Assembly (NCBI RefSeq): GCF_003096355.1
Contig: NZ_QEKI01000004.1
Span: 372,001 to 436,000, forward strand
Direction: 5' to 3'
DNA length: 64,000 nt
From: Pontibacter virosus
Lineage (GTDB): Bacteria; Bacteroidota; Bacteroidia; Cytophagales; Hymenobacteraceae
Shown here: positions 37,620-64,000 of the stretch, piece after piece
Position numbering within the stretch: position 1 is the first letter of the stretch
Layout: each line of letters starts with the position of its first letter
Program-made: the position numbers and the translations under genes
Notes under the pieces: generated by a model
Seen by the model: the letters and a program-made list of their open reading frames with translations, nothing else
What the model was told of the DNA's origin: nothing
The model's database searches: none

Positions 37620-37629
37620 CTTGAAAATC

Positions 37630-37878: not shown

Positions 37879-39048
37879 TCACTTGAAAATATCGCTGCCA
37901 TAGAGGAAGAAGCCGACGCGGCCCTGCAGGGGGTGCAGGTATGGGGCGCGGTCCTTCTCGTGCAACAGGTTGTACTGCAGAAGCGCATAGCCCCTGAGCT
38001 TTTTGTAGAGGGTGTAGTCCTTGCCCAGCCCCGCCGACAGCCCAGACACCCATTCTCGACCAAGCGTCTCCTCCTGCGTGAGGGGATCCATGTGCGCCAC
38101 CGGCGCACTTAAGCCTTCGTATTGTAGCCGTGCAAAAAAGCCGCTTTTGATCTGGAAGTCTGAAAAGAGGCTGTACCCCCCCACCCGCTCCGCGCCGCCT
38201 ACAAAGGGCTTTTCCTTCACGCTCAGGTGCAGGCGGTATTGCCCGCCTAAGCCAGCCGAAAGACGTTCCGAGAAGCGCCAGGCCACCGTCGGCCCCAGGT
38301 CCAGGAAGAAGCGCTCCTGCTTACCCGCCTGCCAGAGGCTGCCCACCACCAGACGCTCCGTCCAGTGCTTACCTTTGAGCGGGTTGGGTCCCAGTATGCC
38401 TTTTCGCATGTCCTTCATGCTCTCCACTTTGCTTGCCCGGCCCTTGTACTTGTCGAAATCGGCATGCGCCTGCCCCAGCTTGTCGAAGGATTCGGTAAAG
38501 GGCTCCCCTGCCGCCTTCAGCGCCGCCTGCCTGGCTTTTGCCTTCAGCTCATCTTGCGAAGCGGGCAGCTGCCCCATCGCGGGGGACTGGGGCAGCCGTG
38601 TAGCAGTGCTCTTCCGCCCGGCCTCCTCCAACTGCTGCAGGGCCTGTTCGAGCTCCTCGGGCTGGAGCTGGGCGGCCAGGGTCTCCCTTCCCTCCTGCAG
38701 CTGGTGCTCCAGTCTCGTACTCACCTCCTTCAGCTCTTCAGGCAGCACCGACTCCCCTGCTACAGCCTGTGAGAGACTGTCAACTCTTCGTGCCAGCGCC
38801 TTCCCCTCCTCGCCCAGCTGCCGCAGGCTGTCAAGTGAAGCATGCAGGCGAGAGGAGTCCTGCAATGTGTAATCGATTACCCGCAGGCTGTCCTGCCAGG
38901 CGATCATCTCGCGCAGCATCTCCCCGGCCTCCGGTGCTCCGGTCGGCAGATACTGTTTGGTTTGCTGGGCAAACGATGCAAAAGAAAGCAGAAGGAAGGT
39001 TAGAAGGTAAAAACAGACTCTGAAATGGGACGAAAGCAGGTAGCGCAT
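37879..39048 (-). CDS. Exported coiled-coil/beta-barrel protein beside the RHS locus
   Basis: A 389-residue protein with signal peptide (MRYLLSSHFRVCFYLLTFLLLSFASFAQ). Residues ~50-190 are a long charged helix/coiled coil (SLRQLGEEGKALARRVDSLS, LQPEELEQALQQLEEAGRKS). Residues ~225-389 are alternating amphipathic strands (RLVVGSLWQAGKQERFFLDLGPTVAWRF, RLSAGLGGQYRLHLSV, GYSLFSDFQIKSGFFARLQY, LSAGLGKDYTLY, GYALLQYNL), ending GRVGFFLYGSDIFK, the look of an outer-membrane barrel. High GC and codon use are like the RHS genes rather than the cargo between them. No family is recognised. Its position at the end of the first RHS module, beyond the structured repeat, suggests an accessory envelope component, but that is inference. 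Confidence 0.78.
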   Translation of the reverse strand: MRYLLSSHFRVCFYLLTFLLLSFASFAQQTKQYLPTGAPEAGEMLREMIAWQDSLRVIDYTLQDSSRLHASLDSLRQLGEEGKALARRVDSLSQAVAGESVLPEELKEVSTRLEHQLQEGRETLAAQLQPEELEQALQQLEEAGRKSTATRLPQSPAMGQLPASQDELKAKARQAALKAAGEPFTESFDKLGQAHADFDKYKGRASKVESMKDMRKGILGPNPLKGKHWTERLVVGSLWQAGKQERFFLDLGPTVAWRFSERLSAGLGGQYRLHLSVKEKPFVGGAERVGGYSLFSDFQIKSGFFARLQYEGLSAPVAHMDPLTQEETLGREWVSGLSAGLGKDYTLYKKLRGYALLQYNLLHEKDRAPYLHPLQGRVGFFLYGSDIFK

Positions 39049-39363
39049 AAAGTAGTTTTGTTTTCTTCGAAAAGGTAGCTGGTTTTTGATGCAGTGCTCC
39101 CAAAAAATGGATGGGTAACGCTCCTACAAGATAGGACATTACGTCTACTTTTCAATAAATCATGCTGCACTGCAACTTACATAGGCAAGAAAGGAATTGA
39201 AAATACTCTTCCCTTTCACAAGGCAAGGCTCCTAGGGTGGAAGGGGCCGGAAAAACCCCTTGACCTTTCGTGCCGCTGGCCAGTCAGCTGCCATCAGGTA
39301 TAGCGCCTGCTATAAGGTATAGGTATAGCTTTACCCATAAGGTATGGCACCAGCTATAAACAA

Positions 39364-39703
39364 AAAGCCCCCGGCTGATTCCGGGGGTTGGGGGCAAGAT
39401 CTAGCGCGAAGCCGCTGCGAGCGGAGGCCAGAGCCAGCCAGGGGGAGAACACCCGTGAGGGTGGGCGGCTGGCTGCGCGGCGGCTGACCCGCAGGCGAGC
39501 ATAACGCGGGCTGTGGTTTTTGTTTTTGGCCTTAGCCCCGCAGGGTTTTAAACAACTCTTAAAACAAAAAAGGAACAGCCGTGAGGAGTACCGCAGGCTG
39601 GCAAGCGAAGGCAAAAGCAAGGCCGACCGAAGGGAGCTTGTACAGCCTTGCTTTTGCCGGAGTGCAGTCCTGCCGAGGACACGGACGAACCCCGCTCTAC
39701 CTG
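39364..39703 (+). repeat. GC-rich structured element, copy A
   Basis: About 340 bases matching copy B (53692-54024) along their length with only scattered substitutions and small indels. It opens with the hairpin CCCCCGG-CTGATT-CCGGGGG (39368-39387). It continues with CAGCCAG/CTGGCTG arms enclosing a CACCC-GTGA-GGGTG hairpin (39435-39475). It ends with a perfect 14-bp stem, GGCAAAAGCAAGGC (39610-39623) with its complement (39645-39658). It lies downstream of the first RHS/immunity pair. Short open frames on both strands resemble each other between copies only because the DNA does. Possibly an RNA gene, a mobile-element remnant or a recombination platform. Confidence 0.8.
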
Positions 39704-39898
39704 CTTAGACTTTTCTATTGGTATTAGCTTTTGTTCTGAGAGTAGACGGTAAACGCAAAAGCCTAATCCAGAGTGGAAAAGGATACTGCTATTAATCAGG
39801 AATGAGGGCATGGGATACAAAGCCGCCATAGCGAGGGAGCAGCACATGAACTCAGCTTTACACGTTTCTACTCCACATTAATTTTCAGCATGCGAAAT

Positions 39899-40363
39899 TT
39901 AATTAGAAGGACAAGGAAGCAAAGTAAAAAGTACATTTAAACACCCTATATCAATCAAATCAAAATCATACTTAGTATTAATTATATTGCTCTTCGTTGA
40001 TTTATTAAATTCCCCATATCTATAAAAAAAATCCTTATAGCTATTAACTAACATAACTCTTCCATCTAAATCATTCAGTTGTATAAACGATGAATATACA
40101 TATAAAGCAATATCTCTATTTTCATCACTAGTGTTCCAAATCACATATAACTTGGCGGAGCTTAATGTCTTTATATAATTAGCGCTTGGGGGCAGTATAC
40201 TATAATACTTCCCGGGAATAATATAGGTCTGCCCTCCTAGCTTTCTCCAGATCGTAATGTACTCCGTTTTATCTTTATTGTGTACAAAACTCCTTTTATA
40301 ATCTAAAAAGTAATATAAACACAATATGATGAAGATGGGAAAAATATAATATTGCTTTTTCAT
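39899..40363 (-). CDS. Candidate immunity protein of RHS module A (membrane-anchored)
   Basis: A 154-residue protein starting 8 bases after the RHS-A stop. An N-terminal hydrophobic helix (YYIFPIFIILCLYYFLDY) anchors it with the rest presumably outside the cytoplasm. The mature part is a small mixed-strand domain (EYITIWRKLGGQTYIIPGKYYSILPPSANY, KLYVIWNTSDENRDIALYVYSS, DLDGRVMLVNSYKDFFYRYG). Very AT-rich and unlike the RHS core in composition. No family is recognised. By position (last gene, right behind a variable toxin tip) it fits an immunity protein. The membrane anchor implies protection in the periplasm; this is inference from location, as no fold is known. Confidence 0.75.
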   Translation of the reverse strand: MKKQYYIFPIFIILCLYYFLDYKRSFVHNKDKTEYITIWRKLGGQTYIIPGKYYSILPPSANYIKTLSSAKLYVIWNTSDENRDIALYVYSSFIQLNDLDGRVMLVNSYKDFFYRYGEFNKSTKSNIINTKYDFDLIDIGCLNVLFTLLPCPSN

Positions 40364-40371
40364 GCTTACTG

Positions 40372-43300
40372 TTATTTTGTAGCTCCTCTTGGATAAAATA
40401 TTTCAGGATAATTTCTTTTCAATGTTTGTAAAGCTCGCCCTCTAGCTGCTGCTCTTGCCCTTCCAATTTGAGCGCCTTCTCTATGCCCTAGCCTTTGAGC
40501 ACTCACACTTTGAAGCCCCTCACTTTTACCGCCACTATAAATTTGTTCTAAACCATTAAAAGCAATTTTCGCAGCACTCCATCCAATATTGTTTACACCC
40601 GCTATATATCCAGCAGCATAATTACCAAAATCTCTAGCAGATCCGTATATTTTGGTTCCGTCACTTTCAGTTCCGTATTGGGAACCCCTATGATGGTATT
40701 CACGATCATTATACCTTTCGTCATTTTTACTAAGAGGAACTCCGTTTTCATCTAATCTTTTTAAATCATAATCTCCTCCAGATATTGCGTTAGCCATATA
40801 ATTCACAAGACCCGGCTCATTACTTCTTATATCATTAATAAAGTCAGAACCTTCTGTAGAGTTTACATCAATGGTACCTTTCCACCCCTGTTGATCTACC
40901 GGGTCATGCTTATCATCGTTATAGAATGAATACATAGTGGCTGAGTTTCCAATTTTTTCACCAGTACGTTTACCATCTCCATCAACAACATATATTCCTC
41001 TATCACCATCGTTTAAATTTCCTCCAACAACTTTATAAGTCCCATCTTCTTTCTGTACAACGTCTGTACTGATCATCCCATCTGGGTCAATAAACCTGAT
41101 CGGGTTATCAAAGGCGTAGTTGTAAGGTGAGTGCCTGCGCATTTGATCCGCCAACGGATCTACCACATGCCACCTGCCAATCTGGGCGTCATACATCCTA
41201 GCTCCGTAGTCCATCCAGTTCAGCCCGAGCTCAGTCTGCTTCTCCTTTCCGTTGTACTGGAACTTGTGGTCCGGCGTCCCTTGCTTCTCGATGCCCACCA
41301 GGTTCAGGCCCCATGGGTCGTAATGGTTCTCCTGCACGAGCATCGGCTGGGTCTGGCTCACGCCCATGTCGTCGAACCAGGCCGCCTCGTAGCTCTCGTT
41401 TGCCAGGAACACTTCCACAAAGCCGTCCTGCTGGGCTGTGTATTCCAGCTCCAGCTTCTCCCACTGTCCGTTAGCCTGCCTCGTGAGCAGCTGGTAGCCC
41501 GAGTCCAGGTAAGAGGAGTCTTTGGCATAGGCAATATAGCGCATGTAGGCGACAGGCGCTCCCTTTTCTTTCTGCAGCACCTGCGGGACTATTGCAATAC
41601 CCGCCCCGATGTAGGGGAGCGCCTTGCCGTTGCCCGTACCCAGCTCACTTACCGTGCCCACGCCGGCCCTGGCCGCCCCTAAGAGCCAGGAGGCCAGGCT
41701 CAGGCCTTTGTTGCCGCGCACCTCCTCCTCGTACAGACCGAAGGCCTCAGCCTTCACGATGTCACCCGCCCGCACGATCAGGCGCTTGCTCGGTCCCAGC
41801 GGCCTGTTGCGTCCGGCGCCCAGCAGGGCCGCGTGTGAGCCCGAGCGGGAGCGGCCCCGGTCAAGGTGGCGCGTCTCTGCCACGTGGCCGAACTCGGCCT
41901 CCTCCTGCTGCGCGGCCATCATCTCCATGGTCGCCTGCGATGAGGTGGTCACCTCCTCGACAAAGCTCACGCGCAGGTTGCCCAGGTGGTCTTTCAGGTG
42001 GTACTCGTAGCGCCACACTTGGTCCGTTGCCGGCTCGTAGAGCGCCCGCCCCTCCGGAGTGTGGGCGAAGAGCGTGTCTGCCTGGTGGACGAACAGCCCC
42101 GCGTAGTCGGTGGCCACCGCCGGTCTGGCCGCCTCGTGCACCTCCTTACGAAGCTTCTCCCCCGAGGCCGTGTAAATGTATTTGATGTGGCCCTTTGCAC
42201 CCAGCGCCACGCTGTCAGGCAGGTTGAGGTGGTTGTAGCGCACGGCCGTGATGCCCTTGTTAGCATCGCTCGTCAGGTTGCCGTTGGGGTCATAGCCGTA
42301 CTCCGGCTCGGCGGCAGCGTACACGCTGCCGTTGTCTCGGAAGTCCCCTGCGGGCCCCGTGGCCGTGGCCTCATCGTCCACGCCCACCAAGCGGTTGCCC
42401 GCGTAGTGGTAACTCAGGCGGTCTACCTCCCCCCAGGACCTGGCAGGGTCTTGTCTGTCGTAAGGGCTCCCCGTAGTCAGTCCACGGCGTACCAGGCGCT
42501 GGATGTTGCCATTGGCGTCGTAGGAAAGCCCGTCCACCGTGTAGTGGTCCTGCTCTTCATCCCAGCCTGCCGCACTCTTTGCACGAAAAGCCCCTGACGT
42601 CAGGCGACCCGCCCGGTCGTAGGCGTAGGCGTAGCCCCGCAGCTTTTCGTCCGAGGCCGTGGCCCAACGCATCTCCGAGATGTTGCCACTGAACTGCCCC
42701 TGCGCCCCAAGCTCCATGCCCGTGTTGTAGCTGAGCACGAATCCGAACAGGTCCCCCTGCTGGCTCACCTGCCCCGGGTCGTTGATTGAGGCAAGCCAGC
42801 CGCGGATGTTGTAGCGCGTGTCCACCTGCTGCAGAAAAGAACCGTCAACGTTCCGGTGCAGCCTTTTCGCCGTCTCCTGGCCAAGCTCATTGTAGCCCCG
42901 CTCAGCCAGCAGCACCTTCTCCCGGCCGTCAATGGACTGCCAGTGGCTTGCCAGGCGCCCCATGTGGTCATAGGCCATGGTGTCCCGCACCATGTGGGTG
43001 CCGTCCTGGTGGGAGGTAAGCGTCACCAGAGCTCTGCCCACGAAGTCGTAGCGGGTGGCCATGCGCTCTGAAGCCACTTGCTTTGCTCCGCCCAGATAGC
43101 CGTCCGAGACAGACTGCACCAGCCGGTACTTGTCATCATAGTAGTTGACTGACACCAGCCAGTCCTCCTTGCCCAGCACCCGCGTGCGGGTGCCCGTCAC
43201 CTGCCCATTCACCCGCTCGTTGCGGGCTGTCACGCCCACCGCTGGCGTGAAATCATAGTCCTGGGTAAAGGCCGCGTGGTCATAGTCATCGTAATAGGTG

Positions 43301-46300
43301 ACCGTCAACACGTCATCTGGAGTGACCGCCACCCCTGCCGGGGAGGAATCGTTGAGCGAGTACCCTTCGCCAGAGCTGTCCCGCGTCTCAAACTGCTGCG
43401 CGGTACTGCTAACCGCGTCCTGTAGCGCAGACCGTTCGATCTGCTTATCCAGTACGCCCGTCACGACCGGGCGGCCCAACGCGTCATACTTGGTGAAGGC
43501 CCACTTTCCGGCCGCCGCCTGCACGGCGTCCCGCTGGAAGACCACCTCGTCGCGCCGGTTGTAGACCAGCTCCACCGGCCCGGCCCCTGGCACCTGCTTT
43601 TCGATCATTCTCCTGCGCCCGTCGTACTCATAGCGGAAGCACCAGTCCGTTATAAAACTCTTGTCAAGCGTGACAGTGCCGTCACCTCCCGACTGGGGCT
43701 GGTGGCTGCGGTAGCCTTCGGGCTGGATCACCAGACGCAGGTTGCCCATATCGTCGTAGACGTAGTGGGTGTCGGCCAGTCCGGGCTCCGGCTCAACCGA
43801 AAGGCAGGCGGGTTCGGAGCTGCCCGAGGCGAAGCGGGCGGCCACCTCCCGGGCGCTGAGGGCTCTGTCATAGAAGGAGAGCTCGTCAAGCCCGCCCTGG
43901 AAGCGGTACCCGCTGCTTCTATTGAGCCAGCCGATGTTCAGGGCTGCCTGGCTGGCAAAGCCCTCCGGGGAGGAGACAGTCTCCTCCTCTACCAGTACGC
44001 CGTCTACGTAGAGCTTTGTCCTGAGCCAGGCCGCATCGCGCACGGCCACCACGTGGTGCCAGGCACCGTCGGTGATCGTTGGGTTATCAGGTGCCTCTCC
44101 CAGGTAAGCCCCCGCCCCAATGTTGTCGCGTAGCTGCAGGCGCGCCCGGCCGGCCGGGTCCAGCCCGATCCACCAGTGCAGCGTGCCGCCCGACTCCATG
44201 TCGTCGCGGCCCAGCACCACTTCGTTGTCGGCGGGCGCCCCCTGCCGGCGCACCCACAGCTCAACGGTGAAACTGTCCCCGCTCCCCCAGTCATAGGCCG
44301 CGCCTGCCGCCGAGAGGCCGCCCATGCCGTCGAAGCCAATGCCCTCCCCCAGCCTGCCCGTTACTGGCGTGCTGCCGGAGCCCGTGGCCACCAGTCCCGT
44401 CTTTGCCTCTGTAAGCGAGCCCTGCGTGAAGGGCCAGTGTTGCACCGGGTCCGCTCCGCAGATTACCGAACCCAGCTCCGCTCCTTCCGGCACCACCTCT
44501 GTCTCGTGGCGCTTCATCACCACCCGTCCCTGCAGGTCCTTGTACTCCACCGTAAGCGCGTCCTCCTCGTCTCTTGTTTCGGTTACGTACAGCGTGCCGG
44601 CATTGTAGAAGTCCTGGCTTGAGAAAGAGCCTAAAACCGGGTCATAGTCCCAGCGGCGCACCTCCTCTGCCAGGTTGGTCCGGTGGCCCTGCTTGACGCT
44701 GCGGCCCGTGCCCGGCTGGAGCAGGGCGCCCGGCGCGCCCTGCTCCAGCACCCGGTTCAGGGGGGAGGCTTCGTAGACCGGCACGGCCCAAGGGGCCGCG
44801 TCTTTGGCCACGTCTGGAAACAAAGTGTTGGACGGGTCATAGAAGGCCGCCTGCTCGGCCGCGGCCGCAGGACGGAAGGAGCCCGCCGTCCCGCCCGCCG
44901 CATAGGGCAGGAAAGTCTTCTCCACCCTCCCCAGCGCGTCATAGCGGACCGGTGTGATGATGTCCTGCCCGGTCGGGCTGGCCTTGGTGAGCACCGTCTG
45001 CAGTTCACGCCCCAGCCCGTCGAAGTAGGTGACTTGCTGGCTCACCTCGCGCACCGTGCCCTGTGCCAGCGCCTCCGGCGTCGTCATCCCTCCGATCTGC
45101 GCCGTGTTGGTGATGACGTAGTTCACCTCCCGGCTAGGGGAAGAGGCCAGGGGCTCCCCGGCCGCAGACACCGTCACCGTCACCTCGGCGGTGTAGAGAG
45201 TAAGGGCCGTGGCCCACTCGTTGGTCACGCGGCAACGGTAGACGCCGGCATCAGTGGAGGAAACAGATGCTACGGAAAAAGAGCTGCCAGTGGCACCAGC
45301 GATGTCCAGCCAGGCACCCTCCAACAGGCGCTGCCATTGGTAGGAGTTGCGCGTACCACCCGTCACCACCAGCAGCTCCAGGGGCTGGCCCGATGCCAGC
45401 TCCCGGGTCTCAGGCTGCCCTAGCGGCGCCTGGCCGCCGTAGCCGAAGTAGGCCAGCGGGGTGGTGCCCACCCCCGTCAGGTTGGCCTCGATCGAACCGA
45501 AACCCAGCCTGTTGCCATAGGCTTCCACGTGTAGGGAGGAGGCGTTCGGGCCGGTGGTGAAATTGGGTATCGCGGTCAGGGCATTGCCTGTCAGGCTCAG
45601 GTAGTAGAGGCTGGGAAGGGTGGCCATCGAGGCCGGCAGCTCCCCCTCCAGTTGGTTGTTGTCCAGCCCCAGCTCCCACAGGCCGGAAAGATTGCCCAGC
45701 TCCGCCGGGACTGCGCCGCTCAGCGTGTTGTTGTGGAGGTACAGCTGGCGCAGTGCGGAAAGACTGCCCAGCGCAGCCGGAATGTCGCCGGTCAGGCTGT
45801 TGCCGTTCAGGTACAGGTACTGCAGTGCGGAAAGATTGCCCAGCGATGCGGGAATAGTCCCGCTCAGGGCACAGCCGTCAAGCCCCAGCTGCTGGAGCAG
45901 GCTCAGGTTCCCCAGCCCGGCCGGGATAGCGCCTGTCAGGGGGTTGCTGCCCATAAACAGCTGGCGCAATGCGGAAATGTTGCCCAGCGACGAAGGGATA
46001 GCGCCGCTGAGATTGTTGCCGTTGAGGAAGAGGTAGCGCAGGCTGGCAAGGCCGCCCAGAGAGGTCGGGATACCCCCGTTCAGCGTATTCCCGTTCAGCC
46101 CCAGGTCCGTCAGGTAGGGAAGTCCCCCCAGTTCCGAGGGTATGGCCCCCGTCAGGTTGTTGTTGCTCAGGTAGAGGTGGTAGAGCGAGGTCGCGTTGCC
46201 CAGGGAGGCTGGAATTGAACCGGACAGGGCGTTGTCGTGCAGGTACACATACTGCAGTCCCACCAGGTTGCCAAGTGAGGCGGGCAGCTCGCCGCTCAGC

Positions 46301-46917: not shown

Positions 46918-47042
46918 TTGGGGTCGTTTAGCGCCGCGCCGAATTCCAGCTCAAGCAGAGCTGAACCGTGTAGTGCCGCAGCAGGTTCTCATTAGGTGCG
47001 TTAAAAAAGTTCGGGGCAACTGGAGGCCGCCGAACCGGATGC

Positions 47043-52711: not shown

Positions 52712-52756
52712 TTAATTTGTATTGGTTAAACCCTTGATAAAGGCAGCTCTAAAATA

Positions 52757-52786
52757 TTGAGTAAAGTTATGATGACATTAACTTTG
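52757..52786 (+). promoter_or_regulatory. Promoter of the cargo gene at 52805
   Basis: TTG (52757-52759), exactly 19 bases, TAACTTTG (52779-52786): a full match to the Bacteroidetes promoter consensus, 18 bases before the start codon. Shows the cargo genes are expressed by the resident sigma factor. Confidence 0.7.
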
Positions 52787-52804
52787 GAGAAATAAAATGT
52801 AGCG

Positions 52805-53593: not shown

Positions 53594-53691
53594 AAGAAGT
53601 ATAAAAAATAATTAACTCATAAAATGTATTAAGCACTTGTCACATTACAGAATCTAACTTCCTCTTAAAAGTATCAAAAGTAAAGCCCCCG

Positions 53692-54024
53692 GTTGATGCC
53701 GGGGGTTGGGGGTAAGATTCAAAGCGCGAAGCCGCTGCGAGCGGAAGCCAGAGCCAGCCAGGAGGAGAACACCCGAGAGGGTGGGCGGCTGGCTGCGCGG
53801 CGGCTGACCCGCAGGCGAGCAAAACATGGGTTGTGGGTTTTGTTTTTTGGCCTTAGCCCCGCAGGGATCTAAACAACTTCAAAAGCAAAAAAGGAACAAC
53901 CGTGAGGAGTACCGCAGGCCGGCAAGCGAAGGCAAAAGCAAGGCCGAGCGGGAGCGAGCTTGTATAGCCTTGCTCTTGCCGGAGTGCAGTCCGGCCGAGG
54001 ACACGGACGAACCCCGCTTCACCT
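53692..54024 (+). repeat. GC-rich structured element, copy B
   Basis: About 333 bases, same orientation and order of hairpins as copy A: CCCCCGG-TTGATG-CCGGGGG (53696-53715), CACCC-GAGA-GGGTG, and the GGCAAAAGCAAGGC stem (53931-53944 with 53967-53980, one mismatch). The hairpin loops vary between the copies while the first stem is kept, as in structured RNA. It lies downstream of the second RHS/immunity pair, matching the placement of copy A. Confidence 0.8.
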
Positions 54025-54077
54025 GACAACAGCCTCTCAATAGCAGTAGTTTAAGCTCTGTATAAATAAGTGGAAAA

Positions 54078-54112
54078 GCAAAAGCCCAATCCTGTGTGAA
54101 ATGGGCTTTTGC
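54078..54112. terminator. Hairpin beyond structured element copy B
   Basis: Perfect 11-bp arms 54078-54088 (GCAAAAGCCCA) and 54102-54112 with a 13-base loop. It lies between copy B and the module B immunity gene, which ends at 54189, so it may terminate that operon. Copy A has only the left arm at the matching place. Confidence 0.55.
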
Positions 54113-54188
54113 AATGCAGATACTTGGTTGAGGAAACGGGCTACAAGTCCGCGTCAACGTGGATGACACAGTTTATTTTAAAGCCTCT

Positions 54189-54695
54189 TCATATTAGATC
54201 TTCATCTATCTCACCCTTTACGATCTTAATCTCGTTTATACTGTCCCCCTTGATTGAAATTGATTCGCTTTTTAAAAAAGCATTAACATTGGCTTTCATT
54301 CTTGATTTATCAAGGATTCCATTAGTTTCAACAATTACATAAACATCAGTAAACTCTATTGCACCTTCTCTTGTAGTACATAGATTTATACGTTTAATAT
54401 CATCCGACGTAAGCGAATTATTGCTATTTACAATAATAGGTTGAAATGAACCTTCTTGTACTATCTCGCCTGCATAGCCGTATGCAATCCATTTACCATT
54501 TGGTATGCCGTTTTTAAACTCGATAAATCCTGAAATATTTCCATTATCAAATTTTGAAACTGCTTTTCCATTAAAAGGCTTCTTATTTAAATAATATGTC
54601 CCTTTTCTCTCTTGGAGCTGATCCATTGTTATAGTCGATATTGAACAACCAGCATTTAAAAATACCATTAAACAAAAATATAGAAATACCTTCAT
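54189..54695 (-). CDS. Candidate immunity lipoprotein of RHS module B, MORN-like repeats
   Basis: A 168-residue lipoprotein beginning 3 bases after the RHS-B stop. Lipobox LNAGC after MKVFLYFCLMVF. The N-terminal half has MORN-like strands (GTYYLNKKPFNGKAVSKFDN, GNISGFIEFKNGIPNGKWIA, YGYAGEIVQEGSF), a pattern seen in YwqK-type antitoxin/immunity proteins. The rest is an alpha/beta domain (TREGAIEFTDVYVIVETNG, SISIKGDSINEIKIVKGEID). AT-rich. By position and export it fits a periplasmic immunity protein for the RHS-B tip. Confidence 0.78.
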   Translation of the reverse strand: MKVFLYFCLMVFLNAGCSISTITMDQLQERKGTYYLNKKPFNGKAVSKFDNGNISGFIEFKNGIPNGKWIAYGYAGEIVQEGSFQPIIVNSNNSLTSDDIKRINLCTTREGAIEFTDVYVIVETNGILDKSRMKANVNAFLKSESISIKGDSINEIKIVKGEIDEDLI

Positions 54696-54698
54696 AAC

Positions 54699-57600
54699 CT
54701 ATTTCTTTAAGAAAAATTGAGCATTATAAATACCAGTTTGAATCATATATGCATCTCGCTTTTCATCTCCAAATCCACCGCTAGTACCACCAAATATATT
54801 TTTAAAAGTTTGATTTAGATTTGAACCTTTAAATAGATCTGAATTGGGAAACCCTGCTGCTACACCAAAAATACCATATGATATATTTCCATAATCATCA
54901 TAACGTCTCAAAGTACCGTTCAAGAATGACCATTCCCCTATAACTTTTGCAGCATAAGACAACGTGCCATCACTAGTTATGTCAGATTTCAAATCATATT
55001 TCGCATCATCCGTGACTAAGTTCCTAAATGCACGTCCTTTGGCTCCAAACATTCCACCTTTCATACTAGCAAGAGGTAGAAAATCTGAAATACCTCCTTC
55101 TACAAGAGCATTAAACTCATCAGTCATATCCATCAGATCCTCACTATAAACTTGCGCACCGACCTTTGTGCCTCTACCCTTTAATGGATGGTTACCTCTA
55201 AATGACCTCCCAGAAATACCTCCTCCCGACGTTCTACCAACTTGGTATGTTAAAGGTCTAGCTGTTGCCCATGGATCATTTTCATTATAATTATCTGCCG
55301 TCTCATCCACTACATAAACAGGTGTCTTCTTATTATTTCCTGGCTTTGTTGCTAGCAATTGACCTCCATTCAATTTATATAAAGCTGTATCTAACCCAAA
55401 AGGATCAATAAATCGAACTGGATTATTAAAAGTGTAATGATATGGAGTTGCATAGGGATGTTTTGCGCTCATAGGATCTACCACATGCCATCTTCCAATC
55501 TGGGCATCATACATCCTGGCCCCGTAGTCCATCCAGCCTAGCCCCAGCTCCGTCTGCTTTTCTTTCCCGTTGTACTGGAAGAGGTGGTCCGGCGTACCGG
55601 TTTTCTCAATACCGACCAGGTTGAGTCCCCAGGGGTCGTAGTGGTTCTCCTGCACCAGCATCTGCTCCACATGCAGCACCGACATGTCGTCGAACCAGGC
55701 CGCCTCGTGGCTCTCGTTCGCGAGGAACACCTCCACAAAGCCATCCTGCTGTGCCGTATACGCCAGTTCCAGTTTCTCCCAGCCCCTGTTAGCCTGCCGC
55801 GTGAGCAGCTGGTAGCCCGAATCCACATAGCTGGAGTCTTTGTCATAGGCAATATAGCGCAAATATGCCACAGGTGCTCCTCTTTCTTTCTGCAGCACCT
55901 GCGGGGCCAAGGCGATGCCCGCCCCGATGTAAGGCAGTGCTTTGCTTTTCCCGCTGCCAGGCTCTGCCATGGTACTCACACCAGCCGTGGCCGAACCCAG
56001 CAACCAGGTCGCAAGGTCTAGGCCCCTACTGCTTTTCACTTCCTCTTCGTAAAGGCCATATACCTCTGCACTGACTCTGTCACCCTTTCTCACAGAAAGC
56101 CTTCGGCTCGGCCCCAGCGGGCGATCATGCCCAGCCCCCACGAGTGCCGCGTGAGAACCTGAGCGCGCCCTTCCCCGGTCCAGGTGCCGCGTCTCCGAGA
56201 CACGACCAAATGTCTGCTCCTCCTCGTAAGCCATCATCGGCTCCATTGAAAGCCCCTCCATTGAGTTGACCGGCTCTGCAAAGCTTACCCTGAGGTTGCC
56301 CAGGTGGTCCTTGAGGTGGTATTCATAGCGCCACTGCTCATCTGCCGGTTTGCTGCCATCGAAAAGCGCACGACCCTCCGGTGTGTGAGCAAACTGCAAC
56401 AGCCCAGCCTCAAAAACGAAAGGTCCTGCGTAGTCGGTCGAGCCTGTCAGTTGACCATTTAAGTCGTATATCTCCTTGCGCAGCTTCTGGCCCGCGGCCG
56501 TGTAGAAAAAGCGGATATGTCCTTTGCCGTCCACTTTCACCCGCTCGGGCAGGTTCAGGTAATTATAGATGACGCTGTCAATGCCTTTGTTGGCATCAAA
56601 ATTCATGTTGCCATGGTCGTCGTAGCGGTATTCCACAGTGTTCTCACTCGTGTGGATGCCTTCGCGGAAGTCCACCGCCCACTGTGTATCCAGACCAGGA
56701 TCCGTGACCAGGTCCTGCACGTTCACCAGGCGGTTGCCCTCGTAGCGGTATTTGAGTTTGTCCACCTCGCCCCAGGCCCTGTTGGGGTCCTGGCGCTCGT
56801 GCGCGTCACCCGCTGTCAGCCCGTAGCGCAGCATGGAGCCGATGTTGCCGTTGGCGTCATAGGTAATGCCGCTGACAGAGTAGTGGTTCTCTTCCTCATC
56901 CCATAACCCGGAGGCCCCCTGGGCCCGGTAGCTCGCGCCCAGCAGCCGGTTGGCTTTATCGTAGCTGTAGGCATAACCCCGCTGCACCTTTGCTCCGGAG
57001 GCAGTCTTCCAGAGCGCCCCGGCAATGTTGCCGTTGTACTGAGGGGAATTTCCCAATGCCGACTCCTCCTGGTAGAGAAGCTTCAAGCTGAAGAGGTCGT
57101 CCTGCGGGTCGTCTGGTAGCCTGTCCAGCTCAATACCGTTGATGTCCGTTAGCCAGCCCCGGATGTTGTAGCGGTAGTCCACTTTCTGCAGAAAATCCTG
57201 CTCCCAGGGCTCCTGCCCCGCACCGTTCTTCTTATGCAGCCGTTTGGCCACCAGCTGCCCCAACTCGTTGTAGCTGTTCTCGGCTAGTATCTCCGGTCCA
57301 TGCTCGTCAATTTTCTGTTCCGTCCTCGTGTGACGGCCCATGTGATCGTACTTTAGTAGCTGGTGAATCTGATGGGCGCGCGCCGGCACTGAACCTGCAG
57401 TGGGTAGCTGGTAGGCAGAAAGGGTTTCCTCCGGCTGCCCCACGAAGTTGTAGACTGTGCCCGTCCGCTCCCATTTGGCCACCCGCTTCCCGTTCAGAAA
57501 ACCGTCACCAAGTACCTGGATCACCCGGTATTTGTCGTCATAAAAACTCACTGCCGTCAACCACACTGGTTCTCCCGATACGTCCTGTGCTCCCAACACC

Positions 57601-60600
57601 CGGGTAAGGGAGCCTGTCACCTGGCCCGTCACTTGGCTATTCAACTCTTCTAAACCCGCTCCTGCCAAAAAAGCATCATCAAAGCCGTAGCCGCTGAGCT
57701 GCGGGTAGTTATAGTCATCATAGTACGTCAATGTCTGCAGGTTATCTTTTCCCAGCACGATGCCGATCGGGGAAGAGGCATTGAGCGTATAGCCAACACC
57801 TACACCTGAATTATCTTTTGCCTCAAACTGCTGTGAAACAGCCTCTGCCGCATCCTGCAGAGCCTGGCGGTCGCGATCATCATTTACCACGCCTGTCATG
57901 ACCGGCCTGCCCAGCGCATCGTATTTGACGAAGGACCATCTCTGCGGAGAAGTTGCCTGATTGGCGTCCTGCGTGAAGATGACCTCATCGCGCCGGTTAT
58001 AGACCATCCTAGTAGGGCCTGAACCGGGCACCTGTTTTTCGATCAGCCTACGTCGCCCATCGTACTCGTAACGGAAACACCAGCGCTCCAGGAATTCAGG
58101 TGTGAACTGGGAAGAGAGCGTAATACGCCCATTCAAACTAGGGGAAGGGAGCTCCTCGCGGTAACCCTCGGGCTGTATCACCAGCCTGAGGTTGCCCAGG
58201 TTATCATAGAGGTACTGTGTGATCATGAAATCTTCGGCCACCCCCGAAACCTGGTCTGCCTCCTGAACTTTCTTCATCACCACCCGTCCCTGCCGGTCCT
58301 TATACTCTATTGACAGGGCATTATGCTCGTCGCGTACCTCTGTCACACTGAGCGTGCTCGGCAGGTAATAAGCCTCTGTGTAATATTCCGTGCTTGCTGG
58401 CCCCATGGACTTTACCTGCCACAGCCGTACTTCCCCTTCAGTGTTGGAGCGGTGCTGCAGCTTGGTAGAATGATCCGGGCTGGTCTCTACCGGGAGGCCA
58501 TCGGGCTGCCAATCCGTGCCCGGCGCCCCCTGTTTCAGCACCCGGCACAGGGGCGAGTTCTCGTATATCGGAATTGCCCAGGGATGTTCGCTTGTAGCCA
58601 CGCCCGGGCTGGATGCTGAAGGACTATAAAACAAAAACTGCTCGTTTTCCCCGGTGATGGCCTCCGGCCTGAAAGTCCCATCAGCTCCTTTCACATAGGG
58701 AAGGTAGGTCTTTTCCACCCTCCCAAACTGATCATAGCTAATCGGCTGTACGACATCCTTCCACCCCGGGCTGGCCTGCGTCTGCACCACCTGCACTGGC
58801 TTTCCCAATCCGTCGAAGTAGGTAATCTGCTGTGCCAGCGGGTCTATCGGCAGCCCATCGGCCTCCTCAGCGCTCACCACACCCTTTTCCCTGAGCGTGT
58901 TCTCCACGATGTAATTCATGTCCGAGAGGTCCCGCGCACGCTGCACCTGTATCTCATTGGAGACCACCTGATGAATGCCTCCTCCCATAGTCACGCGCAC
59001 ACTGTAGTAACCCGGTGTGGAGACATACAGCTCCCGCCCGGTCTTACCTGTGAGTACCTTCCCGTCACGCAGCCACTGGTATGTGTCATAAGCCGTAGCC
59101 GACGCCATTGTCACACCCTCTCCCGGGGCTAAGGTTGTAGACCCGTTGATAACGGTGATTACAGGAATTTCATATACCGTTGCCGTCACTGCGCTCCTGC
59201 TACTCTCGCAGCCCTGGCTCACGGATGATACATAGAATGTAGTCGTCGCTGCCAGGCTCGGGGTATAGCTGTTCCCCGTATGCAGGGGCGCCCCGCCCGA
59301 GGGGGCACTGTACCATTGGTAAGTGTAACCGCCCACCTGTGACTGTACGACCATGCTCACGGCGCCCTCCCCTACCCGTGACGCTGCCGGGACGAAGGGA
59401 GCAGGCGGCGGTGTATTCACCGTCACCTGCTCCCCCACGGCAGGCCCCCAGCAGTCTCCCGAGTTGGAATGTCCTCTCAGGTAGTAGGTGTGGGTTCCGC
59501 TGGATGTGGCTATATAAGTCTCACCACTGTTAGCGGGATCGTCGTTCATGCCATCAGGGTTCTGTCCCTGCCAGTACCAGGTCACATCCGACGAGTGACT
59601 GACAGTACGCGTCAGTATTTTGCTTCCGCAGGGGTTTGACGAGACGGATGGCGTAGCCGGGGCCGTGGGCAATGGGACCACTGTTATCCGGATCGGCACG
59701 GCCTCCCCCCAGCAGTTGGTTGCATCGTTCCGGGCACGGATGAAATAAGTGTCTGTCCGGGTGGCCGTAAACGTTTCTGCACTGTTGACTGGGTAGGTAT
59801 CCTTACCCGTCGCCGAAAGCTGCCAGAACCAGGAGATGCCCGAAGGCGGCTGGTCCCGCGTAATGGTCTTCGGCCCGCAGATGTTGGTGGATATGGTCGG
59901 CATGTTGATCGGCTGATCCACGGTCGTCACGCTCACCTGCACGGCAGCTGACACCGCTGTGCAGCCAGAACTGGTCACGGTCACGGCTACGGTGTAGGAG
60001 CCGCCCCCGGTGGCCGTAAGGCTCTGCCCCGTGGCACCTGAGATAGCGCTGCCATTAAGCAGCCACTGGTAAAGGTAGCCCGCGCCCACCGGTGCCTGCA
60101 GCAACACATTTTCCCCATTACAGAAAGTAGTGGAGCCAACTACTTGGACAGTGGCCGGGGGGAGCGGGTTCACCGCCACCTGCACGCTGCCAGTCATGGT
60201 GGCTGCACAGCCCGTGGTAAAAGAGCCCACGACCGTGTAAGTGCCCGCCGCCGTCTGGCTGCCGAAATTCACCTCACCGCCGTTGCCTGTCAAAGGAGAG
60301 CCCACGTTCGCCCCGTTGCGCCGCAGCTGGTAGCGCACCCCGCTCTGGCTGCCCTGAAGCTTCACCGACACGCCGTTGCCGCCGGCACAGTAGCTGCCCC
60401 CGCCCGTCACGCTGTAGGCGTTCGGGCCCGGGTTGGCCTGCACCGACAGGGAGCCCGTAGCCATGTAGAAGTTGCCGTCCGGGCTCGGGCAGCCGCCGGC
60501 TGCCTGCAGGGAGCCCTGCGTCGAGGTCCAGGTCACCGTCACCGAGTTGCCGTTCTGCGTGTAGGTGCCCCCGCTCACGCTCCAGAAGTCAGCCGAGCAG

Positions 60601-60881
60601 CCCACCTCTCCCGTCGCGGTGTAGGTGTAGGTCGAGCCGACGCACACAGTGGTCGGCCCTGTGATGGTGAAGGTGTAGCCCCCGTTACCCGGATCGGGCA
60701 TCAGCAGAGAGGACGCCGCCACCTGGTCACGCGCGGACTTGGACCAGTTGCCCGGTGGGAGCACCGCCGCCTTGCCCTTGCCCGGGCCCTTCTGCGCCAG
60801 TACGCTCAGCTGGGAAAGTAATAACATAATCAGCAAAACTAGAGCGCCTGCATGGCGCAGAAGGGTATAGCGTTTTCTCAT
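54699..60881 (-). CDS. Giant RHS/YD-repeat protein with Ig/PKD-like domains and type-44-like toxin tip
   Basis: A 2060-residue exported polymorphic-toxin protein. Signal peptide at residues 1-30 (LVLLIMLLLSQLSVLAQ). Residues ~50-640 are repeated Ig/PKD-like modules (for example YTFTITGPTTVCVGSTYTYT, VQVVGSTTFCNGENVLLQA, YTYQWYSAPSGGAPL), several of them Cys-containing. A DUF6443-like linker begins near 655 (NYIVENTLRE...QQITYFDGLGKPVQVV), then YD repeats. RHS-core segments are KDHLGNLRVSF (~1527), YDPWGLNLVG (~1745), YNGKEKQTELGLGW and RFIDPFGLD (~1828). The tip (~1830-2060) contains YDLK, then DDYGNISYGIFGVAAGFPNS and FGDEKRDAYMIQTGIYNA, which by eye matches the polymorphic toxin type 44 (Ntox44) pattern. 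It lacks the LRR and LamG modules of RHS-A. Its partner starts 11 bases upstream. Confidence 0.9.
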   Translation of the reverse strand: MRKRYTLLRHAGALVLLIMLLLSQLSVLAQKGPGKGKAAVLPPGNWSKSARDQVAASSLLMPDPGNGGYTFTITGPTTVCVGSTYTYTATGEVGCSADFWSVSGGTYTQNGNSVTVTWTSTQGSLQAAGGCPSPDGNFYMATGSLSVQANPGPNAYSVTGGGSYCAGGNGVSVKLQGSQSGVRYQLRRNGANVGSPLTGNGGEVNFGSQTAAGTYTVVGSFTTGCAATMTGSVQVAVNPLPPATVQVVGSTTFCNGENVLLQAPVGAGYLYQWLLNGSAISGATGQSLTATGGGSYTVAVTVTSSGCTAVSAAVQVSVTTVDQPINMPTISTNICGPKTITRDQPPSGISWFWQLSATGKDTYPVNSAETFTATRTDTYFIRARNDATNCWGEAVPIRITVVPLPTAPATPSVSSNPCGSKILTRTVSHSSDVTWYWQGQNPDGMNDDPANSGETYIATSSGTHTYYLRGHSNSGDCWGPAVGEQVTVNTPPPAPFVPAASRVGEGAVSMVVQSQVGGYTYQWYSAPSGGAPLHTGNSYTPSLAATTTFYVSSVSQGCESSRSAVTATVYEIPVITVINGSTTLAPGEGVTMASATAYDTYQWLRDGKVLTGKTGRELYVSTPGYYSVRVTMGGGIHQVVSNEIQVQRARDLSDMNYIVENTLREKGVVSAEEADGLPIDPLAQQITYFDGLGKPVQVVQTQASPGWKDVVQPISYDQFGRVEKTYLPYVKGADGTFRPEAITGENEQFLFYSPSASSPGVATSEHPWAIPIYENSPLCRVLKQGAPGTDWQPDGLPVETSPDHSTKLQHRSNTEGEVRLWQVKSMGPASTEYYTEAYYLPSTLSVTEVRDEHNALSIEYKDRQGRVVMKKVQEADQVSGVAEDFMITQYLYDNLGNLRLVIQPEGYREELPSPSLNGRITLSSQFTPEFLERWCFRYEYDGRRRLIEKQVPGSGPTRMVYNRRDEVIFTQDANQATSPQRWSFVKYDALGRPVMTGVVNDDRDRQALQDAAEAVSQQFEAKDNSGVGVGYTLNASSPIGIVLGKDNLQTLTYYDDYNYPQLSGYGFDDAFLAGAGLEELNSQVTGQVTGSLTRVLGAQDVSGEPVWLTAVSFYDDKYRVIQVLGDGFLNGKRVAKWERTGTVYNFVGQPEETLSAYQLPTAGSVPARAHQIHQLLKYDHMGRHTRTEQKIDEHGPEILAENSYNELGQLVAKRLHKKNGAGQEPWEQDFLQKVDYRYNIRGWLTDINGIELDRLPDDPQDDLFSLKLLYQEESALGNSPQYNGNIAGALWKTASGAKVQRGYAYSYDKANRLLGASYRAQGASGLWDEEENHYSVSGITYDANGNIGSMLRYGLTAGDAHERQDPNRAWGEVDKLKYRYEGNRLVNVQDLVTDPGLDTQWAVDFREGIHTSENTVEYRYDDHGNMNFDANKGIDSVIYNYLNLPERVKVDGKGHIRFFYTAAGQKLRKEIYDLNGQLTGSTDYAGPFVFEAGLLQFAHTPEGRALFDGSKPADEQWRYEYHLKDHLGNLRVSFAEPVNSMEGLSMEPMMAYEEEQTFGRVSETRHLDRGRARSGSHAALVGAGHDRPLGPSRRLSVRKGDRVSAEVYGLYEEEVKSSRGLDLATWLLGSATAGVSTMAEPGSGKSKALPYIGAGIALAPQVLQKERGAPVAYLRYIAYDKDSSYVDSGYQLLTRQANRGWEKLELAYTAQQDGFVEVFLANESHEAAWFDDMSVLHVEQMLVQENHYDPWGLNLVGIEKTGTPDHLFQYNGKEKQTELGLGWMDYGARMYDAQIGRWHVVDPMSAKHPYATPYHYTFNNPVRFIDPFGLDTALYKLNGGQLLATKPGNNKKTPVYVVDETADNYNENDPWATARPLTYQVGRTSGGGISGRSFRGNHPLKGRGTKVGAQVYSEDLMDMTDEFNALVEGGISDFLPLASMKGGMFGAKGRAFRNLVTDDAKYDLKSDITSDGTLSYAAKVIGEWSFLNGTLRRYDDYGNISYGIFGVAAGFPNSDLFKGSNLNQTFKNIFGGTSGGFGDEKRDAYMIQTGIYNAQFFLKK

Positions 60882-60892
60882 AAAGTCAGGGA

Positions 60893-63800
60893 TTACTGGC
60901 CTCGGTAATGGTACTCGTAACTCTTCAAAACATTGCCCGCGTGGTCTTTCACCACCTTCAGGCGACTTAAAACGTCGTATTCGTAATAAACAGTTTTGCC
61001 ATTTGTGTCTGCCATGCTTGTTACACCTACCAGCGGGTTATAAGTATAGGTTTTCATTTCAGCACCAGGCGGAACGATGCGTAATTCGTCTATCCGGTCT
61101 CCTGTACAGGTGACCTGCCCCCCATTGTATAGCTGTTTCACCAGGCTCCACTTATTATCGGTCGCTGACCACTTCCAGTAAGATAATGTAGACCCAGGCA
61201 GTGGCGAAAAACCGGCGGGTGGCGAAAACGTATAGTCTCCGCTATGGAATCGATTGCCCGTCTTAGCGCTTTCACCCTCCGTCCCGGTAGCCTCAAAGCT
61301 TGTATGAAATACTTGGTCAGCGGTAGCGTTTTTCACCTCGGCTGTCGGGTAGGCCGCATTATATCCCCACAGGTAAGTCAGCGGTGGGCCATACTCGGGA
61401 AGGGCTTCAATCAGGTTCCCCTTGTCATCATACGCTTTCATGTATATTTCCCGCCTGTAACGGCTGTCATGGCTGAGTTTGAAATCGCTGCTGATCACTG
61501 ATTGCACAAAGTCAGACGCTGCTATGGGCTCCTTGACGAATGCCGACAACTTCTCCTCCAACCGAATGCCCCCACCCGCGGCACCGAAATCCCTGAACTT
61601 ATTCAGCACTGAGCTCTGCAGCACCCTTCCGTTAGCATCCTGCAGCCAGACGAGCTCCTCCACAACGGGAGAGAGCATATGCGATGCCTGCATTTTCTCC
61701 AAGGTGGTCGCAGCATTGTTCTCAGACCTTAGCTCCGCCGTCATGGCCGTTGCAAACTCCTCGCAGCTCGAGTACGGGTAACACGCACGGTCCACTTCTT
61801 TGCAATGCCCCACATGGTCATTGGCAGCACACCATTGCACTTGGTCTGCATAGTAGCTGTTGAGAATCCCGTCAAAAGCGTAGTCCCCCGGATACCTGTA
61901 CTCCACAATCTGTGACTGACCCTTGCTGTCCGTCAGGGCCTGCTCCCTGATCAGGTTGCTTGCATTATAGCTGTATTCCTTCTTTGAGGTGAATGGAGGT
62001 GTTTTTTCATTGAATTCAATCAGTTCCTCCTTCACCAGGTTAAAGCGGTAGAGAGGAATCTGGTAAGCAGTGGCATAGTAGCCGCTTACAGGACTGCATA
62101 GCTTTTGCTTGCGGACCTCCACCATGCGCACCGCCTCCCGGGAGGACTTTTCATAGTGCATGATAGCCTTTCGAACTTCTCTGGCTGACTCGTCATAATC
62201 CTGCCGGAGCAGAAGCTTTCCCCTTAGAATACTCCTGTCATTGTAAGGGGAGTAAAAACTCGTCTGATAATGCGTTCTACCATTGGCAGACAGGTCTCCG
62301 TACTCAGACGTGAGTTCCACCCCGCCTGGCACGCTGGATTCAGAATTTGTATCAAAATTACTGAAAGTGTACCTGGTAAAGCCATTGCCAACAGAACGCT
62401 CTATCACCTCCGAGTACCCGATATGGCTGCCATCCCCATTCAGGCCAAAGGGAAGCAGGGAGCCACTGTTGAAATACGAATAGGTGTAGTGATTTCCCTC
62501 TATATCCTTACTTTCGTAATCATCCCACGCATACTGAGTCAGCCCGCCGAGAATGCCGCTGGAGTTCAAATGATCTGGATTTTCATTGCCGTTGAAGCCT
62601 TTCACATAGTAGAATTCCTTTGCTGCGAGCAATTGTCCGTCGTAGTTGTAAGATTTAATCTCCTTGATCCGCAGACCTCCTGCCTTGCGATTTGAGTACC
62701 CCTGTTGAAATGATACGCGGTCCCTGTCCACCACCTTGTAGTAGGCATGTGGCTCAAAGCTGAATTCAGTATACCCCTTTGTCGGGAAAGTAATTCTATT
62801 GATAGTCTCCGCCCGCTGGTACACTCCTGAGCCATCTGGTTGGCGCAAGGCATGATAGGTATGGATAGAGATATTGTTCATGCCGCACAGGTCTGCTCCA
62901 TTGAAGTAGCCCCAGTGATCGACAGCATCCACGTTGTAAGGGGGAAGCTTGACTGTTTCGTTGTAACTTATCACATACGGCTCGGAGGGCTTGCCATCCC
63001 GCCCCGTCTCCGTAACCTTGTGGAGTTTCAGCCGCCTTTTCTTTCCATCGCCATCCACAGATGGGTAATATGCCAGCGAAAACCTCTTTATTAATTGGCC
63101 ATCTTTTCCATTGATACTCATACTTTCCAGCTTCTTCCACTCCAGGTCGGACACACGCTGCAGGTACCTGGAGAAGGGATAGTAGTCTTCTGTATGCTTC
63201 AGATCCTTCTCATGATAATTAAGCTCGTCACTCTTTGAAATCGAAAAACTTACAGTGTAGTTGGCTGAGGAAATCTTTTCCAGATAAACCGGGAGAATCA
63301 GGAATCCGTCAGCCGCTCCCATTGTTGTCGAAACAGGATCACCGTCCACGCAGGTGTAACCGTGCCCGCTGAAGGTGTTTGTATGACAGCTCGTACCATT
63401 TCTTTCTGCGGACACACTGGAATCAATTATACTGTTGCCAATCGAAGCAACCGGAGGTCCCGGCCGGTAACGAAAGGTCACTTCCGTCCCTGAAGCAGGA
63501 ATAATTTTAGTGAGATACCAACTGGTGGGAACCAGCTCCTCCTCGTTCTGTCCCCTGTAGCTCACACTGAACTCCGTGGCGTCCGCCACGGTTTCATCAG
63601 AACCGTCCTGCACTTGCTGCCCTCCGAACACATACCTTGTTCCATCAGGCGTGATCAGCGTGAACTCATTGAAGAAGCGGTGTCGATAGTTCTTCATCAA
63701 ATCCGGAATGTCGAAACCGGTCGTTGTAGCGACTTTACTCGCCCGCCAGAGTACGGTAGTCTCATTGACAAATCCTGTTGCAGCGTTGAATTCCACCTTT

Positions 63801-64000
63801 ATGTCCTGATCAGACACCACTTTCCACTTACCGTCATGCCCCAGCATGAATTTGCCTGAATACCCCATGAAGTTAAAGCTGAAAACATCGGCCATTATAT
63901 CATAAGTGGGGCCTTTATAATATTCTGATTCTCTGCCTTGAAATTCAGAAAACGCCTTATAATACGCCTCCAGCCTGTGGGGTTGATCCCAGTCATCTTG
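60893..64000 (-). CDS. RHS partner (shell) protein of module B, 5' end beyond window
   Basis: The frame stays open to the right edge (35 codons upstream of the first internal ATG, reading QDDWDQPHRLEAYYKAF), so the N-terminus, about 160 residues by comparison with the paralogue at 47043, is missing from the window. The segment YDIMADVFSFNFMGYSGKF aligns with YMPDIFTLNIGELNHKF of that paralogue. The middle is strand-rich SpvB/TcB-like sequence (RYLQRVSDLEWKKLESMSING, NRITFPTKGYTEFSFEPHAY). A carbohydrate-binding-like segment (HTSFEATGTEGESAKTGNRF) and C-terminal YD repeats (TYTYNPLVGVTSMADTNG, VYYEYDVLSRLKVVKDHAG) end where RHS-B begins 11 bases later. Confidence 0.85.
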   Translation of the reverse strand, partial: QDDWDQPHRLEAYYKAFSEFQGRESEYYKGPTYDIMADVFSFNFMGYSGKFMLGHDGKWKVVSDQDIKVEFNAATGFVNETTVLWRASKVATTTGFDIPDLMKNYRHRFFNEFTLITPDGTRYVFGGQQVQDGSDETVADATEFSVSYRGQNEEELVPTSWYLTKIIPASGTEVTFRYRPGPPVASIGNSIIDSSVSAERNGTSCHTNTFSGHGYTCVDGDPVSTTMGAADGFLILPVYLEKISSANYTVSFSISKSDELNYHEKDLKHTEDYYPFSRYLQRVSDLEWKKLESMSINGKDGQLIKRFSLAYYPSVDGDGKKRRLKLHKVTETGRDGKPSEPYVISYNETVKLPPYNVDAVDHWGYFNGADLCGMNNISIHTYHALRQPDGSGVYQRAETINRITFPTKGYTEFSFEPHAYYKVVDRDRVSFQQGYSNRKAGGLRIKEIKSYNYDGQLLAAKEFYYVKGFNGNENPDHLNSSGILGGLTQYAWDDYESKDIEGNHYTYSYFNSGSLLPFGLNGDGSHIGYSEVIERSVGNGFTRYTFSNFDTNSESSVPGGVELTSEYGDLSANGRTHYQTSFYSPYNDRSILRGKLLLRQDYDESAREVRKAIMHYEKSSREAVRMVEVRKQKLCSPVSGYYATAYQIPLYRFNLVKEELIEFNEKTPPFTSKKEYSYNASNLIREQALTDSKGQSQIVEYRYPGDYAFDGILNSYYADQVQWCAANDHVGHCKEVDRACYPYSSCEEFATAMTAELRSENNAATTLEKMQASHMLSPVVEELVWLQDANGRVLQSSVLNKFRDFGAAGGGIRLEEKLSAFVKEPIAASDFVQSVISSDFKLSHDSRYRREIYMKAYDDKGNLIEALPEYGPPLTYLWGYNAAYPTAEVKNATADQVFHTSFEATGTEGESAKTGNRFHSGDYTFSPPAGFSPLPGSTLSYWKWSATDNKWSLVKQLYNGGQVTCTGDRIDELRIVPPGAEMKTYTYNPLVGVTSMADTNGKTVYYEYDVLSRLKVVKDHAGNVLKSYEYHYRGQ

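Follow-up and report, generated by a model that had tools for sequence, protein, structure and literature searches.

How could an exported Rhs shell leave the cell through two membranes while retaining its tip, and how could that tip be swapped without loss of immunity? Both questions are raised by a locus of Pontibacter virosus situated in a window of 64,000 nucleotides (the whole stretch of DNA analysed here, to which all positions refer) on a 436,991-base contig of a 4.88 Mb genome. The locus comprises two minus-strand modules, each consisting, in this order, of a partner gene, a giant RHS gene, a small candidate immunity gene and a repeat of ~350 bp. We propose, with a probability that we put at roughly 0.6, that the locus is an island of polymorphic toxins directed at bacteria, in which a split Rhs cocoon built like TcB/TcC acts as the effector. 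Its halves, each of which carries a Sec-type signal, would come together either in the periplasm or on the cell surface; the partner (an SpvB-like domain and a half shell) and the RHS protein (the other half shell and a core plug) would together enclose the tip, which would be released where the core ends, at DPxG. Display or binding might fall to the variable LRR, Ig and LamG parts, and the gene that follows a tip would shield kin in whichever compartment that tip acts in.

Two modules, each encoding a probable split cocoon

In module A, partner A (47043-50285, 1080 residues) has a signal segment, an SpvB-like N-domain, a half shell and a C-terminal YD repeat, and RHS A (40372-46917, 2181 residues) is built of a signal segment, LRR, a sub-threshold Ig match, DUF6443, a LamG insert, the RHS core and the tip (tip A, 40375-41067). 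Candidate immunity gene A (39899-40363), which encodes an N-terminal membrane segment, starts 8 nt past the RHS A stop, and the module ends with the hairpin-rich repeat A (39350-39705). Module B consists of partner B (60893-64000; it continues about 405 bases beyond the end of the window and has 1170 residues in slice L059, see below), RHS B (54699-60881, 2060 residues, with a signal segment, Ig_7 repeats, DUF6443, the RHS core and an Ntox44 tip at 54702-55391), candidate immunity gene B (54189-54695, with a lipoprotein-type signal and a start 3 nt past the RHS B stop) and repeat B (53682-54025), which closes the module. The order partner, RHS, small gene, repeat, claimed in an earlier note made from the letters of this DNA, is thus borne out for both modules, as is its claim that N-terminal domains, tips and small genes differ between them.

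A structure model of the partner matched, in a fold search, the TcdB2-TccC3 cocoon and the SpvB N-domain. In the RHS protein, Pfam and NCBIfam recognize DUF6443 and the Rhs-associated core, and both RHS proteins have a DPxG motif at the core end, which we take to be a self-cleavage motif. When the RHS core was compared by sequence with the PDB, the best matches were mosquito SGS1/SGS4 (E 4.1e-11 and 9.1e-6). With Pfam, SpvB was found in one of 15 partners and RHS_repeat in 13, and none of the 15 matched a beta-propeller family at E <= 0.01 (Pfam families only). The profile of TcA (PF18276) was silent in the genome itself, but it was equally silent in 14 of 14 controls.

DUF6443 occurs in 46 of 150 genomes of the family. 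For the comparison of loci we used 48 slices (L numbers) from these genomes (G numbers): 28 come from the genus and cover every place of the repeat and every place of DUF6443 except the weak one of G064, plus adjoining slices, and 20 come from 19 of the 32 genomes of other genera that have DUF6443. The slices hold 40 full RHS open reading frames (ORFs) with distinct tips, 37 of which were counted since three lie at slice edges. A partner match was found within 2.6 kb upstream and on the same strand in 36 of these 37 (the exception is in L146); the split partner and RHS pair is therefore conserved across Pontibacter and its kin. The earlier note had proposed a two-part cocoon and, as a check, co-occurrence of the partner and RHS in other genomes: the latter was found in those 36 loci and, with the partner fold match and the RHS families, it backs the former. 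As a side observation, the C-terminal YD end of the partner is encoded by a separate ORF in G083 (L065 6852-7393) and G117 (L078 5573-5767), and G075 (L062 666-7591) has tandem partner copies, the second of which is divided into two ORFs.

The same note held that the shell cores are nearly identical and that payloads were swapped on them, which turned out to be overstated. RHS cores A and B share 560 of 982 residues (57%), and the partners are 23% identical overall; BLAST aligns the latter at 35% over the C-terminal 191 residues, plus a weaker stretch of 29/98 (partner B being cut at the window end). Identity at fourfold sites along the core is about 0.2-0.6, i.e. near saturation, and rises to 0.68-0.80 only near codons about 1763-1852 (41362-41631), a tract of high synonymous identity between the modules. 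Because of the 57% identity and of this fourfold-site profile, near-identical cores can be ruled out; the two shells are old paralogues, in which one short tract near the tip end was shared recently.

Tip cassettes, the repeat and the membrane protein gene

Among the relatives, 21 of 61 distinct tips are in orphan cassettes with a core end alone; the piece found on these stored tips corresponds to the final 84 residues of the RHS core (41074-41325 in RHS A, the end of Rhs_assc_core with its DPDG). The P. virosus genome itself has no orphan tips, its core ends being the two live ones. G083 (L064 1054-16878) holds an array of ten such cassettes that converge, with six of them on one strand and four on the opposite one. 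In three of 11 multi-member tip clusters live and stored positions are mixed; in the clearest case the live tip of G046 matches a stored one of G083 with 72% identity over 129 residues, and the small genes that follow are similar. C-terminal displacement is known from enterobacterial rhs (PMC2935791, PMC3967940, as far as the accessible parts of these papers go), and the stored tips described here are instances of it.

On the other side of the cassette lies the repeat. Copies A and B are 90% identical across 340 nt (E 1.9e-130), and at E <= 0.001 no third copy was found in the genome among the 40 of 63 first-look candidates that were scored. With four candidates scored per genome, the repeat was detected in at least 14 of the 150 genomes, all of this genus. 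A profile made from ten copies found 26 elements in the slices, 19 of which are within 2.2 kb downstream of a tip, and all 19 are on the strand of the tip, as repeat A is in its own cassette. Most of these are 0.5-1 kb from the tip, just beyond the small gene. One near-complete repeat (L054 10113-10457, G119) was observed in a 20-kb slice without a tip cassette.

The predicted fold of repeat A has a z of -2.62 relative to shuffles, 2 of 100 shuffles being equally good. Covariation is moderate: cells changed on both sides number 28, as compared with 13.3 in shuffles (0/500 reaching this), but further pair types are no better than in shuffles (261/500), and most changes amount to one two-allele difference. 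A terminator-like hairpin was found by scanning at the end of repeat A (39368-39387, minus strand), although the scan gave two sites in the region for 1.4 expected in shuffles, which is not significant alone; the repeat is probably also a transcript end. Its identity to repeat A exceeds the identity of the membrane protein gene (see below) at fourfold sites in G046 (86% versus 77%), G099 (86% versus 69%), G111 (81% versus 70%), G101 (77% versus 57%), G087 (80% versus 57%) and G109 (88% versus 37%), and for this reason the repeat appears to be constrained or exchanged. A cassette flanked by core homology and by the repeat has two arms available for exchange, and we infer that tips may travel as cassettes, using the core end and the repeat as arms for homologous recombination.

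Beyond repeat A, the minus-strand gene 37879-39048 encodes an outer-membrane-type protein of 389 residues. The earlier note let its modules begin at 37879; this position is the stop end of that further conserved gene of the locus. In the product a signal segment and a coiled-coil-like region are followed by a C-terminal part, probably a beta-barrel, a call based on the UniRef name of a relative and on a weak alternation pattern (ten peaks after residue 225, but seven before it too). For this protein (P0001) no Pfam family above cut-off was among the matches shown, the remaining ones being coiled-coil or chance, and no PDB match was better than E 0.047.

The gene is present in 14 of the 150 genomes, 12 of which also have DUF6443 (p 1.2e-5, uncorrected for relatedness). 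In ten of these 12 the distance to RHS could be measured, giving 11 pairs at 4.3-8.7 kb and one at 19 kb, and the measured pairs include other genera (two pairs in G014, and G051). As for the rest, in G119 the membrane gene is on the contig of one RHS gene, about 15.5 kb off and on the opposite strand, and in G135 a weak match is on a different contig from RHS. The two genomes without DUF6443 are G109, which has RHS cores at contig ends, and G101, which has the repeat and the membrane gene and no RHS. A barrel this small is unlikely to let the shell through, and for this reason we see the protein as a putative anchor: in lineages possessing the gene, it would hold the complex at the outer membrane. 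In three loci of another genus (L139 11237-12337, L140 10967-12064 and L145 5179-6282) a lipoprotein-like gene of ~366 residues stands after the immunity position in place of the membrane protein; this may be mere synteny, since the flanks are shared.

Taken to its full extent, the proposal would describe a Tc-like weapon that is displayed at the surface and comes with an exchange system of its own: a Sec-exported split cocoon, tethered by the dedicated membrane protein, with tip and immunity cassettes delimited by the core end and a conserved structured repeat (recombination arm and transcript end), so that a stored array could supply the payloads. This extended form is tentative, and we regard it as distinctly doubtful.

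A simpler explanation, doubtful as well although it has a real chance of being correct, is that these are ordinary signal-peptide Rhs polymorphic toxins of Bacteroidota, the repeat being a co-carried terminator region and the membrane gene a mere neighbour at a tRNA site. Signal-peptide SpvB and RHS toxins are indeed already in the accessible part of PMC3482391, C-terminal displacement is known (PMC2935791, with the same restriction), the repeat does end in a terminator-like hairpin, and the site next to tRNA-Arg(acg) (37546-37620, plus strand, at the flank of the locus; ARAGORN and Rfam tRNA), with the genes beyond, is common to four Pontibacter loci (G000, G099, G101 and G111). However, the membrane gene adjoins RHS loci in two other genera (twice in G014, and in G051) and, in other Pontibacter slices, lies elsewhere than at that tRNA; in G087 and G109 the repeat still shows 80% and 88% identity despite the low fourfold identity of their membrane genes.

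Predicted export of the shell

Both partners and both RHS proteins begin with a hydrophobic, signal-like segment, as judged by eye and by hydropathy. Such an N-terminus was found in 17 of 18 partner ORFs and 15 of 18 RHS ORFs of Pontibacter, under a rule that selects the most favourable start. No PAAR or VgrG-type N-terminus was matched by Pfam at E <= 0.1; a signal segment is there instead. We favour Sec-type export of both halves, but export as such, which the earlier note regarded as the unusual point, has less support as a novelty: Zhang et al. (2012; PMC3482391), in its accessible part, describes a TcdB/TcaC class with a signal peptide and SpvB, Bacteroidetes included, and catalogues signal-peptide RHS toxins as well.

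It is unlikely, in our judgement, that the complex is instead a cargo of the type IX secretion system (T9SS), reaching the surface or the medium through SprA. SprA is encoded in the genome itself (E 2.2e-157), and export by this route was speculated for the TANFOR toxins (PMC7073777, accessible part). But a T9SS sorting domain gave no NCBIfam match at E <= 0.1 in the shell proteins P0003, P0004, P0008 and P0009 (the last without the N-terminus of partner B), and the C-termini of the shell proteins are a tip or a YD repeat.

Tips and their candidate protectors

Tip B belongs to Ntox44 (PF15607; 63.1 bits for a cut-off of 24), has 35 relatives and gave a structure model with a pLDDT (predicted local distance difference test) of 89.6. 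Tip A has no assigned family (no Pfam match at E <= 0.05); its similarity to the live tip of G099 amounts to 42% identity over 190 residues. Its assignment to Ntox44 was considered, as DxK and GNxxxG are shared by eye in a joint alignment, and rejected: Pfam gives no support, and the hhalign probability against the Ntox44 profile is 0.43%. Candidate immunity genes A and B match no family in Pfam or NCBIfam. By BLAST the tips are unrelated. In the whole set of 61, 32 are singletons; of 20 submitted to Pfam, tip A included, three were above cut-off, namely HNH (L062), Tox-GHH (L067) and M91-like (L055). Candidate protectors of the HNH and Tox-GHH tips are without a signal, and those of the M91-like tip and of both window tips have one; this pattern over five cases fits protectors matched to the compartment of the tip.

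That we are dealing with surface adhesins or teneurin-like shells instead of toxins is very unlikely. LRR, Ig and LamG domains for display are present, the fold matches of the partner model include teneurins, and 17 of the 20 tips are without a Pfam family above cut-off; however, the tips vary and are stored as cassettes with a following gene, and known toxin families (Ntox44, Tox-GHH, HNH, M91-like) are found among them.

Several observations weigh against the split, exported cocoon toxin with exchangeable cassettes as we have described it. The partner model is of moderate confidence (pLDDT 65), and a PDB search with the model of tip B gave no match at E <= 0.001. The literature, in its accessible parts, describes Ntox44 as a nuclease or predicted RNase, which is a poor fit with a lipoprotein protector. 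In the earlier note all immunity proteins were exported; this is so for both window genes and does not extend to the family, where the gene at the immunity position looks exported in 18 of 35 Pontibacter cassettes (three further ones have no ORF there) and in 15 of 23 cassettes of other genera, one of these genes being actually the membrane protein. Moreover, under a similar rule 13 of 28 ordinary genes of the window count as exported, so that no enrichment of exported protectors is shown, and exported immunity as a rule of the family is ruled out. Seven of the 26 repeat elements have no tip within 2.2 kb in their slice: two are at 3.7 and 5.7 kb, one follows an RHS gene that lies on the far side of a slice edge, and four are in slices without a tip (L054, L063, L072 and L076). 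The ten stored tips of G083 have, taken together, a single partial repeat. Lastly, the membrane protein has no match in 34 of the 46 DUF6443 genomes and is therefore a lineage accessory.

Other features and history of the site

Two divergent genes to which no function is assigned separate the modules: 51800-52711 (minus strand, with an N-terminal membrane segment) and 52805-53593 (plus strand). They have copies of 92% and 93% identity in G111, between the repeat and the membrane gene. In the same genome a 38-residue match to partner A (L075 16565-16678) lies between these genes and the membrane gene and looks like the remnant of a lost module. In G101 (L072 2855-10157) the tRNA-Arg site is without RHS modules, while the repeat and the membrane gene stay; by eye, their neighbours look like a mobilisable element. 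Over 37000-64000, Rfam gave the tRNA and one overlapping sub-threshold match, and none on the repeat. A defence library gave weak matches to P0005 (E 0.0015) and P0001 (E 0.0038), which we regard as chance.

Comparison with known systems

If the proposal is true, the locus would be an example, from an environmental genus, of a Tc-like shell that its own producer exports, together with a candidate for the membrane anchor and a recognizable layout for cassette exchange. It also supplies a lipoprotein as candidate protector against an Ntox44 tip; the table of PMC3482391, as far as accessible, lists none. The likeness to mosquito SGS1/SGS4 is that of the RHS core, the SGS proteins being eukaryotic single-chain salivary proteins. 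The TANFOR toxins (PMC7073777, accessible part) are Sec-signal polymorphic toxins of the same phylum for which the outer-membrane step is likewise unsolved, but no TANFOR model in Pfam or NCBIfam matches here, where an Rhs cocoon is found instead. Also among the closest known systems is the TcB-TcC (BC) cocoon (TcdB2-TccC3, YenB/RHS2), which shares the adjacent pair, the partner with its SpvB-like part and half shell and the RHS core with a variable tip; the Pontibacter pair differs by signal peptides on both halves, a candidate immunity gene, and DUF6443 and display domains in the RHS half.

Like Rhs polymorphic toxins, the modules have a conserved core with non-homologous tips and, in relatives, orphan tips with core fragments occur as well. 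The Rhs C-terminal displacement loci, according to the accessible parts of PMC2935791 and PMC3967940, have in common with ours stored tips with a core fragment and live and stored positions exchanged between genomes; the loci studied here are not of the type VI secretion type and have a conserved downstream repeat as a possible second arm, of which those parts make no mention. In the literature searched (most subscription papers lie outside it), no paper names DUF6443, none deals with Rhs in Pontibacter or with an Rhs outer-membrane toxin in Hymenobacter, and none describes such a layout, judging by titles and the beginnings of abstracts. A further close system is that of the signal-peptide TcdB/TcaC and RHS toxins of PMC3482391, again for its accessible part, with which the signal peptide, SpvB or RHS, polymorphic tips and occurrence in Bacteroidetes are shared. 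Because signal-peptide SpvB and RHS toxins were already catalogued there, the split exported cocoon is a variant of Rhs/Tc polymorphic toxins already known; what sets the Pontibacter locus apart from them is the combination of two exported genes with a locus-linked repeat and a membrane protein, which that part of the paper does not mention, and it is the repeat and the membrane partner that look new.
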